64,000 nt of DNA, taken from assembly GCA_019359445.1 (NCBI GenBank), contig JAHHHJ010000005.1:1-64000 (forward strand), read 5' to 3'. Shown here one piece after another: positions 1,343 through 12,339 of this stretch. Position 1 is the first letter of the stretch; every line of letters begins with the position of its first letter. The notes under the pieces are model-generated. The model was given only the letters and a program-made list of their open reading frames with translations. It had not been told where the DNA came from and ran no database searches. The position numbers and the translations under genes were made by a program. Origin of the DNA: Kastovskya adunca ATA6-11-RM4. Lineage in GTDB: Bacteria; Cyanobacteriota; Cyanobacteriia; Cyanobacteriales; Coleofasciculaceae.

Positions 1343-3100
1343 ATGAACTCCATTGTCGAACAACTCAAGACCCGCTTTACTCAAACACTAGTTGCCGCCT
1401 TTGGTGATGATTTTGCAGGGACAGATCCAATGGTGGTAGCAGCTAGTAATCCTAAGTTTGGTGACTACCAGTCAAATGTCTCTTTGTCACTGGCAAAAAG
1501 GTTAGGTCAACAGCCAAGAGCGATCGCGCAACAAATTATTGGGCATTTAGATGTGTCGGATATCTGCGAACCACCGACAATTGCTGGTCCTGGGTTTATT
1601 AACCTGACAGTAAAACCTGCTTACCTGGAAGCACAGCTTAATAATATTCAGATGGATCGGCGTTTGGGGATTCCAACAGCCAAGCATCCTCAGCGGGTGA
1701 TTGTGGACTTCTCTGCTCCTAATATTGCTAAGGAGATGCATGTAGGTCACTTGCGCTCCACTATCATTGGTGATTCCATTGCTCGGGTTTTAGAGTTTCA
1801 GGGTCATGATGTCCTGCGGCTGAATCATGTGGGTGATTGGGGGACGCAGTTTGGAATGCTCATTACCTACCTGCGAGAAGCCCACCCGGAGGCTTTGACT
1901 ACTGCTGATGTTTTGGACTTAGGAGACTTGGTCGCTCTCTATCGACAAGCAAAGCAGCGTTTTGATGCCGATGAAGATTTTCAAGAAGTATCTCGGCAGG
2001 AGGTTGTAAAGTTACAATCTGGTGCGGAAGATTCTCGCCGTGCTTGGCAGTTGCTGTGCGAACAATCCCGCCGGGAGTTTCAAGAAATTTACAACATGCT
2101 GGATATTCAGCTAACGGAACGGGGTGAGTCATTTTACAACCCGTTGCTTCCTGATGTCGTGAAAGACCTTGAGCAAGCAGACTTGCTAAAAGAAGATGCA
2201 GGCGCTCAGTGCGTTTTCTTGGAAGGATTTAGCAATAAAGCAGGTGAACCGCTACCCCTGATTGTTCGGAAATCTGACGGTGGGTACAACTACGCCACTA
2301 CTGATTTAGCCGCAATCCGTTATCGGATTGAGCAGGATAGAGCTGAGCGAATTATCTATGTCACTGATGCTGGACAAGCCAATCACTTTGCTCAAGTATT
2401 CCAAGTCGCGCGGCGAGCAGGTTGGTTGACAGATGAAGTTGAGATCGTACACGTCCCCTTTGGGTTGGTGCTGGGGGAAGATGGAAAGAAAATCAAAACT
2501 CGCTTTGGAGAAGCGGTACGGTTACGGGATTTGTTGGATGAAGCGATCGCTCGCGCTCGTGCCGATCTGGAAGCTCGACTCCAGAAAGAAGACCGCGAGG
2601 AAACGGAAGAGTTTAAAGTCCATGTTGCCAAGGTGGTTGGACTCAGCGCCGTTAAGTATGCTGACTTGAGCCAAAACCGTACGAGCAACTACATTTTCAG
2701 TTTCGACAAAATGCTTTCTCTCAAGGGCAACACGGCTCCTTATTTACTCTATGCCTATGCCCGCGTTCAAAGTATTAGTCGTGAAGGAGGTATTGATTTT
2801 GAGCAGCTGGGAGCAGATACCAAAATCCTGTTGCAGGAAGACACGGAATTGGCACTAGGGAAGCATTTATTACAAGTGAGCGAGATTCTCGAAGAAGTTG
2901 AGCACGATTTGCTGCCTAATCGCCTTTGTCAGTATTTATATGAACTAAGTCAAAAGTACAATCAGTTTTACGAGCAGTGTCCTGTGCTTAAAGCCGAGGA
3001 ACCTGTGCGGACATCGCGATTAGCGCTGTGCAATTTGACAGCTCAAATTTTGAAACTAGGGCTGTCGTTACTGGGAATACCTGTTTTAGAGCGGATGTAG
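1343..3100 (+). CDS. argS: arginyl-tRNA synthetase
   Basis: This class I aminoacyl-tRNA synthetase charges tRNA-Arg. The 585-residue protein has the ArgRS N-terminal additional domain (about residues 1-110), the HIGH-type signature in the HVGHLRST segment, a degenerate KMSK region in [15 protein letters not shown], as is usual for ArgRS, and the C-terminal DALR anticodon-binding domain ending in LGIPVLERM. The ATG start gives the normal N-terminus. The stop lies only 13 bases before the 3' end of the convergent, broken peptide deformylase gene. Confidence 0.97.
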
Positions 3101-3113
3101 TAACCATTACTAC

Positions 3114-3665
3114 TTACAGATTCTGAATAATTTGTTTTTGATATTCTTGCTCTGTCATCAAATCCTGATTGCTTTCTACGCGATCGAGGAAGACAACGCC
3201 CTTAAGGTGATCCAGTTCATGTTGAAAAATTCGGGCAACAAAATCCTGCAACTCTTGTCGGTGTTGCTTGCCATCACGACTAGTGTATTCAACCTAGATG
3301 ACTCGATACCTAGGAACTAAACCCCGGATTCCTGGAATGCTTAAACAACCTTCCCAGTCTTTAATTATTTCTTCAGAATGGTCAACCAGGCGGGGGTTAA
3401 CCATTGCTGTGGGTTCCATTAACGGGGCATGGGGATAGCGGAGATTAGGACGAGAGGCCACAATGAACACACAGTGCTGTTCAGATACTTGTGGTGCAGC
3501 AATTCCCACGCCGTTTGCTGCTGTTACTGTCACGATCAGGTTATTGATCAAGTGTTGGATGTGCTGAGCGCTAATGTTTTCAATCAGCCGAGCAGGTTGG
3601 CGCAGGATAGGATTACCTAATTGAGCGATTTGTAGAGATTCAGCCATGATGAACTTTGTACTCAT
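3114..3665 (-). pseudogene. def: peptide deformylase, interrupted by an in-frame TAG
   Basis: Peptide deformylase removes the formyl group from nascent proteins using a metal held by one Cys and the two His of HExxH. Reading the minus strand from 3665, the 5' part encodes the GVGIAAPQ motif (residues 52-59) and EGCLS (105-109). An in-frame TAG (plus-strand cta, 3294-3296) falls at codon 124, and the same frame then continues open to a TAA at 3114-3116. That downstream part contains the HELDH metal motif (149-153) and a normal PDF tail, GVVFLDRVESNQDL. The truncated 123-residue product would lack two metal ligands. Either this copy is dead, or the stop is suppressed, or the base is a sequencing error. 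The start may instead be the ATG seven codons in (MAESLQ). Convergent with argS. Confidence 0.88.
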
Positions 3666-3917
3666 AGGCGATCGCTATACTAACGAAGAATCTTTACACC
3701 ACAAAAGTTGACCTGTGGTTCACCAAGAAGAGTTGTATAGCGGTAGATAATACTATTTTGCACAAGTAGGCGATGATGTTATCTACCTCAAAAAGGGAGT
3801 AAAGCTGAGATTGGCAATACATCTTCTACAGATTGTCTAGCAAGATGTGAACAAATCGCCGGAAGCTGCCCGTGTGACGCTGAAAGAAAATATCAAGACT
3901 ATGGTGGAGGAAAGCCA

Positions 3918-5294
3918 GTGGAAATGTCCTCAGAACAGCTTTGGAGCCAGGTACTGGAACGTCTACAGCTACAACTGAGCCGACCCACCTTTGAAACTTG
4001 GATTAAAACGGCTAGTGCCGAGCAATTGGACAATAATCGCTTAGTAATTCGTACCCCCAATCCTTTTGCTCGCAATTGGCTACAAAAGTACTACATCAAA
4101 ACAATTGCCGATGTTGTCCAAGACATCTTGGGTCAAGCGGTTGAGATTCAACTCACGGTTACCGCTGGCGATGATACGGCTAATACCAATGAGTCCCAGG
4201 CGTCTTGGTCACTTCCTGTGATGACTAGCGTTCCTGAAACTACGTCGAATAATCACCCACGACCTCCGGAACTCAATTCCAAATATGTTTTCTCGCGTTT
4301 CGTAGTGGGTTCCAACAACCGTATGGCACATGCGGCTTCTTTAGCGGTTGCAGAATCTCCGGGACGTGAGTTTAATCCATTGTTCCTATGTGGTGGCGTT
4401 GGTTTAGGAAAAACTCACTTGATGCAGGCGATTGGTCATTATCGATTGGAAATCGACCCGAACGCCAAAATTTTCTACGTCTCCACTGAGCAATTTACTA
4501 ATGACTTAATTGCTGCCATTCGTAAGGATAGTATGCAGAGCTTCCGGGAGCACTACCGTGCAGCGGATGTGATTTTAGTAGATGACATTCAGTTTATTGA
4601 AGGGAAGGAGTATACCCAGGAGGAGTTTTTCCACACCTTCAATACTCTGCATGAAGCAGGGAAGCAAGTCGTCATTGCATCAGATCGTCCTCCCAATCAA
4701 ATTCCTCGCTTACAAGAACGTCTTTGTTCGCGTTTTTCGATGGGGTTAATTGCAGATATTCAGCCGCCGGATTTGGAAACCCGGATGGCAATTCTGCAAA
4801 AGAAGGCAGAGTACGAAAACATGCGATTACCGCGCGCTGTCATTGAATACATCGCAACCAACTACACTTCCAATATTCGGGAGTTGGAAGGAGCGTTGAT
4901 TCGTGCGGTTGCCTATATCTCAATTTCAGGGCTACCGATGACGGTGGAGAATATCACGCCAGTGTTGAATCAACCGGCTTACAAGGTTCAGGCGTCACCA
5001 CAAGCCATTTTAATGGCGATCGCAGATACTTTTGATGTTTCGATTGAAGACCTAAAAAGTAACTCCCGACGCCGAGAGATTAGCTGGTCAAGACAAATTG
5101 GGATGTATCTGATGCGCCAACATACCGACTTGAGTCTACCAAGAATTGGTGAGGAGTTTGGTGGCAAAGACCACACAACCGTAATGTATAGCTGCGACAA
5201 GATTACTCAGTTGCGAGAAACCGATGCAACACTAGACCAGACTCTACGCCAACTTAGCGATCGCATTAATTTAGTCAGCAGAACTCAAAACTAA
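3918..5294 (+). CDS. dnaA: chromosomal replication initiator DnaA
   Basis: DnaA binds TTTTCCACA boxes and melts the origin as an ATP-bound filament. The 458-residue protein has domain I (residues 1-85, [10 protein letters not shown]), a short variable domain II, the AAA+ domain III with Walker [11 protein letters not shown] (159-168) and Walker B ILVDDIQF, and a C-terminal domain IV with the [18 protein letters not shown]-binding signature. The start is GTG with GGAGG seven bases upstream at 3906-3910. Immediately downstream is a cluster of DnaA boxes and then dnaN, the classic bacterial origin layout. Confidence 0.98.
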
Positions 5295-11372: not shown

Positions 11373-12339
11373 TATAGCAACCGCCAAGGCGGTTAGGACG
11401 CCAGGTGCAAGACATCCTCCATTGCATCACGTAGACAATCAAACTGGTTGAGTTGCTTGCGAATTCGACTTTTGAGCCAAGACCAGCATTGCTCAATTTT
11501 ATTGAAGTCTGGTGAATAAGCAGGTAAGTAGAGCAATTGACAGCCAGCTTCCTGAATTAGTTGCTCAATGTTTCCCCCTTTATGAAAGGTGGCATTATCC
11601 ATAACCACTACCTGCCCCGGTTTCAGCAGAGGAATCAGGCAGGTTTCCAACCAAATCTCAACTACAGTCCGATTGCAGGAACCTTCGACGGTAAAGGGAG
11701 CCATCAGTTTCCGGTTGCAAAAGGCTGCAATCATATTCACTCGCCCCTGCCGTCGCCCTGATTTCAAGGCATGAAAGCGTTGTCCTTTCTCATTCCAGCC
11801 ATAACTGTAATCTTCAAGGGTTGTCCATGCCTGCTTCATCCACATAAACAATCATTTCATCTGCCCACTTAGCCAACTGCTCTATGAACGTTTGCCGTTT
11901 TGACTCATCCCGTTCTTGATAGCCATAGGTCTTTTTTTTCGTGTGAACCCAATTTTCTTCAAGGCTCGTGAGATTGTGCGATCGCTGATGTCTCCCTCCC
12001 ACAGTTGCGCCATCTCCACCTGGGTTTTATCTCCATGAGTCTTAGCAAACGTCCGGAACTTCTCCCAGTCTGTAATTTTATGATTGTTGCCAGGAGGTCG
12101 GTTGGGCAATGCTTGAACATCTCCCGTTTGGGCTTTGCGTTGCAACCACAGGTTTATCGTGTTGCGACTGATATTGAACAGTTCACTCGCTTCGCTTTTC
12201 TTGAGTCCATCTAATTCAATAGCTTGGAGCACTTTCTGACGAAAGTCGTAACTGTAGGGTTTAGGCATGGCAGAGCAAACGGTAACAAGTCACAATAACA
12301 CCTTCATTCTATGTCCTAACCGCCTTGGCAGTTGCTATA
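11373..12339 (-). mobile_element. IS630-family insertion sequence
   Basis: A 967-base element bounded by 27-base terminal inverted repeats, 11373-11399 and 12313-12339, which differ at one base (AACCGCC versus AACTGCC). Both outer ends read TATAGC, consistent with the TA target duplication of the IS630/Tc1/mariner group. It contains one transposase gene on the minus strand, split over three frames. It sits in a gene-poor spacer between the DUF4912-like gene and ftn2. Confidence 0.9.
11393..12268 (-). pseudogene. IS630-family transposase with two frame changes
   Basis: The 5' part (12268-11882) encodes the HTH region MPKPYSYDFRQKVLQAIELD, then FNISRNTINLWLQRK. At a run of eight As (minus strand, around 11935) the expected protein continues in the -1 frame (KKTYGYQERDESKRQ) up to the first catalytic Asp (VYVDEAGMDN). 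That slip at A-AAA-AAG is a plausible programmed -1 frameshift. A second change after MDN (CCCTTGAAG where CCTTGAAG would keep frame, around 11825) moves to the third frame, which holds EDYSYGWNEKGQRFHALKSG, the second Asp (VVMDNATFHK) and the Glu (FNKIEQCW). The second change looks like a real one-base insertion, so this copy is probably inactive. Confidence 0.88.

Follow-up and report, generated by a model that had tools for sequence, protein, structure and literature searches.

A single in-frame TAG interrupts an accessory peptide deformylase gene of Kastovskya adunca, probably through a recent loss

Peptide deformylase (PDF) holds its metal through the Cys of the EGCLS motif and the two His residues of HExxH, a motif whose Glu is the catalytic residue. 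According to the main text of PMC12690207, several PDF genes occur in about one in two bacterial reference genomes, and deviating motifs may leave many of the accessory copies with weak activity or none; the word 'pseudogene' is absent from that main text. The gene analyzed here, def2 of Kastovskya adunca ATA6-11-RM4, resembles the accessory PDFs described there in being additional to a main PDF gene, but its motifs are exact and are instead parted by a stop. It is also like the accessory PDF of cyanobacteria in sequence (57-73% identity to 21 aligned orthologues), in motifs, and in its place beside dnaA, as seen in the two relatives checked, and differs from it by a private internal TAG. Bacteria also have pseudogenes that are disabled by a single nonsense codon. 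With its lone stop and otherwise undamaged sequence, and as a dispensable paralogue, def2 is like these, and no difference from them was found.

We analyzed the first 64,000 nucleotides of contig JAHHHJ010000005.1 (the window) together with the rest of the host genome, which has 5,085,095 bases (5.09 Mb) in 37 contigs and is given in the assembly listing as 99.99% complete with 0 contamination. An earlier sequence-only reading of the window had proposed a PDF gene split by one in-frame TAG, with GVGIAAPQ and EGCLS ahead of the stop and HELDH beyond it in the same frame, and had left the strand unnamed. Translation of the minus strand bore this out, including the position of the stop. Read on that strand, the gene is one frame that starts with ATG and is interrupted only once before its terminal stop (183 codons plus the terminal stop, counting the TAG as one codon). 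On the plus strand, the displayed frame contains five stops over these positions. With X placed at the TAG, def2 aligns to PF01327 from position 2 to position 153 of the 156-position profile (E 9.5e-48; 162.2 bits against a curated cut-off of 22.8), and the NCBIfam model TIGR00079 is passed with a score of 128 (cut-off 103.95). GxGxAAxQ, EGCxS and HExxH share one DNA frame and do not stand in a single translated frame, as the TAG severs HELDH. As judged by homology, the TAG lies inside a genuine PDF gene, and chance is excluded because homology flanks the stop on either side.

Table 1. Features of the interrupted deformylase locus, in window coordinates.
Feature	Position	Strand	Basis
def2, accessory PDF gene, interrupted	3114..3665	-	translation; PF01327; orthologue identity
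Sole internal TAG, codon 124 of def2	3294..3296	-	translation, orthologue alignment
123-codon open part of def2, with GVGIAAPQ and the Cys-ligand motif EGCLS, without HExxH	3297..3665	-	translation
Part of def2 beyond the TAG, with HELDH, conserved, predicted to be out of reach for normal translation	3114..3293	-	translation, conservation
Neighbour on the side away from dnaA, presumably argS (named by recall from its sequence)	1343..3100	+	orthologues (76-80% identity) present in three of the four genomes searched
Neighbour, presumably dnaA (named by recall from its sequence)	3918..5294	+	orthologues (81-85% identity) present in three of the four genomes searched
252-base gap between def2 and dnaA, whose starts diverge	3666..3917	.	

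The gene adjoins dnaA, in divergent orientation, in both relatives checked (G011 and G014). G014 shares with the host both the gene order (argS, def2, dnaA) and the strands, and in G011 argS is found about 2.7 kb away, beyond dnaA. Because this position is common to the two relatives, def2 is, on gene order, in a shared place and not a new insertion. Elsewhere in the window (11393-12268, minus strand), a transposase-like sequence that we take to be IS630-like runs over overlapping ORFs in different frames, by programmed frameshift or decay.

We profiled other copies of the gene for the same stop. The codon-124 column of the 21 aligned orthologues holds Glu in 20 and Ala in one, and TAG is one base away from a glutamate codon. 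These 21 were drawn from the 29 non-host rows that have loci in our search of relatives; two near-duplicates of genera already used and six partial or distant rows were dropped. No stop was found inside def2 in any of the 29 rows, nor, over the matched range, in any of the 141 def2-type places of a class sample other than the host copy (142 places in 140 genomes), where matches can be partial (that of G020 starts at query residue 41) and four genomes are in both sets. In a third collection, the Cys motif and HExDH stand in one open frame in all 80 named loci, the best 80 of 594, which may omit the host genome and were read as far as HExDH. All but one of these (79/80) are open from the match start; L081 is open after a stop that we rejected as internal, as it sits upstream of the locus's own start. 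The flagged def2 rows, four among the 29 relatives and four among the 141 class places, were likewise rejected, as all of their stops lie outside the gene. In G013, G017, G035, G036, G042, G161 and G204 the stops either precede the start or fall at the end; the rows of G008 and G035 run further upstream, and both genes are open from start to match end. A stop flagged in a def1 gene (G023; def1 is introduced below) is also outside the gene, at one of these two positions. Among the copies examined, the TAG is private to the host genome. A disabling change that the orthologues lack is a mark of a pseudogene, and def2 carries one.

The sequence-only reading had noted that the family needs at least one active copy and proposed a search for a second PDF gene. 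We found one elsewhere in the genome, def1 (G000:C36:10399-10845), which is intact, is 192 aa long from its first possible start, and is the one PF01327 match besides def2, so that at the sequence level another copy is kept. Identity between def1 and def2 is about 35% over the matched range. A strong def1-type match (best E 2.3e-72 or better) is present in 36 of the 37 genomes of the relatives search, host included, and the lone genome without one is 67% complete.

The distribution of def2 is patchier. Our class sample held 195 genomes of at least 95% completeness, host included. Every one has some PDF match, and 140, again counting the host, have a def2-type match (E 1.9e-44 or better). The other 55 (about 28%) miss the type at this threshold, with best matches of 1.2e-36 or worse that include some intermediate ones, about 1e-27 to 1e-36, of unassigned class; no genome has its best E in the gap between 1.9e-44 and 1.2e-36. 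On gene content, def2 is an accessory, dispensable paralogue, a name we give it because it is often missing from class genomes that all have some PDF match. Another intact copy in the genome and an orthologue often missing in relatives are what a pseudogene of a dispensable paralogue should show, and both were found. A shared loss in a member of the same family (G005) was considered and rejected: the absence of def2 there is uninformative because argS and dnaA were likewise not found in that 88%-complete assembly.

Beyond the TAG, def2 deviates at none of the 18 otherwise invariant columns of the 22-row alignment and at one of the 29 columns conserved in at least 85%, where the other 21 rows deviate at 0 to 4. 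A uniform neutral model puts the divergence since loss at no more than about 7% per site (95%), a rough figure. The earlier argument that a lack of other damage makes the loss recent is thus supported, with codons beyond the TAG that appear free of decay. Ahead of the TAG, 7 of 71 conserved columns are altered in def2, a count near the top of the range; three other rows have 7, 8 and 11. With an end branch of 0.31, def2 exceeds all other rows of its family (next 0.25) and is at about twice the median of the whole 22-row tree (0.15). This long branch could reflect relaxed selection prior to the stop, or only the effect of a single-genome genus in the set.

We interpret def2 as most likely an accessory PDF paralogue that was recently inactivated by a single nonsense mutation, with an intact def1 kept elsewhere. 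A recent knockout was among the options of the sequence-only reading and is the best explanation; the private TAG, the intact def1, the frequent absence of def2 in the class and the conserved part beyond the TAG speak for it. One base substitution would have turned codon 124 into TAG, a change that we infer to be real in the organism. Translation would then end after 123 residues and yield a fragment that has the Cys ligand and lacks HExxH, with its two His ligands and the catalytic Glu. This product should be inactive, because those residues sit beyond the TAG, and it is probably degraded. The cell would survive as def1 removes the N-formyl group, for which this one enzyme presumably suffices.

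The main alternative, appreciably less probable and still to be taken seriously, is an error in the consensus or assembly, which the sequence-only reading had listed as a sequencing error, in which case the TAG would be an artefact and def2 intact in the organism. That a single base is affected while the rest of def2 is undamaged, and that every other copy examined lacks the stop, are both as an error would have it. However, the assembly figures look good, and it would be a coincidence for a stop-making error to hit a dispensable gene. Two other genes with a single stop were found in 804 kb of the genome, as real decay predicts, although errors would give the same.

Those two genes come from a census of in-frame stops over the 804 kb with a hexamer method. 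Of 1185 simulated stops the method recovered 1100, a rate that is optimistic because these stops sat in its own training ORFs. The census gave 25 candidates (14 TAA, 7 TGA and 4 TAG). We took def2 and four others to Pfam, and the remaining 20, including two TAG, were judged by eye. A domain crosses the stop in two of the four, both TAA, so that TAG occurs only in def2 among the three stops shown to be inside a gene. Another candidate was a false positive, with an IspF domain that ends ahead of the stop, and at the census TAG at C14:125949 an AAA match below the cut-off is located beyond the stop. Because two other genes have a domain across the stop, we count single-stop gene breakage among the background features of the genome, and nothing marks TAG as special. 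One of the two is a response regulator receiver domain spanned by PF00072 (G000:C14:68812, plus strand; L191:8587-9015), and the other is a pentapeptide-repeat gene spanned by a Pentapeptide_4 match (G000:C16:14149, plus strand; L173:13201-15249).

A second alternative, that the TAG is read through or suppressed to give some full-length def2, was also raised by the sequence-only reading and now looks very improbable. In its favor, the part beyond the TAG is as conserved as in intact orthologues, and tRNA-Gln(CTG), whose anticodon occurs only there among the listed tRNAs, lies in a 20-tRNA array. Near-cognate reading of UAG by a tRNA of this kind is known from yeast. However, the amber-suppressor tRNA that the earlier reading had suggested looking for did not turn up: no CTA anticodon is present among 57 host tRNA hits, all covered by ARAGORN runs. 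Release factor 1 (RF1, prfA) is intact (525 bits), and TAG terminates 117 of the 395 long ORFs (those with 250 or more codons between stops) in the 804 kb. Suppression is unlikely on these three grounds, and as far as seen TAG acts as a stop in the host. Further points against it are that TAG makes up only 4 of the 25 census candidates, that the other two proven in-gene stops are TAA, and that no orthologue examined has a stop at this place. The host genome thus shows none of the signs of suppression or recoding (a CTA tRNA, loss of RF1, many in-frame TAG codons in genes), an argument that is strong but not absolute because the tRNA list is incomplete (no tRNA-Ile(GAT) was seen, and scoring covered 150 of 275 first-look candidates). 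A narrower version, in which partial readthrough, for example by the array's tRNA-Gln(CTG) on contig C32, would give a low, tunable level of full-length PDF, we hold to be slighter still. The array itself (G000:C32:39943-43001; L033 9944-13002) is dense and lies on the minus strand; many of the anticodons of its 20 tRNA genes are repeated elsewhere in the genome, and an ORF beside it (L033 14227-14745) is presumably HNH-like.

That the halves are made separately and assemble into an active split enzyme, by a restart at, for example, the TTG 14 codons beyond the TAG, is hardly credible, as this candidate start falls within the domain, none of the orthologues read is split at this place, and the metal ligands of the two halves would presumably need to meet.

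Recent inactivation of def2 by one nonsense codon would be ordinary gene decay, nothing new in kind, and would leave the general view unchanged. If real, it offers a clean snapshot of a redundant copy of an essential enzyme being lost, the accessory copy first and by one base, and it predicts that the organism relies on one deformylase. Another broken copy was seen in a genome of the same order and another family (G029; 86% complete, 350 contigs), which is one of the 29 rows without a stop. Its def2 (L076:1355-1872, G029:C96) is in two pieces, with a frame change inside motif 1, and may be an apparently independent break by frameshift or an assembly error. This fits the dispensability of def2 and leaves the odds for the host gene unchanged. 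An opposite fate to that of the host copy was observed in a complete-looking genome, where two def2-type genes lie about 1.2 kb apart on the same strand (G185:C1:5832967-5835223).
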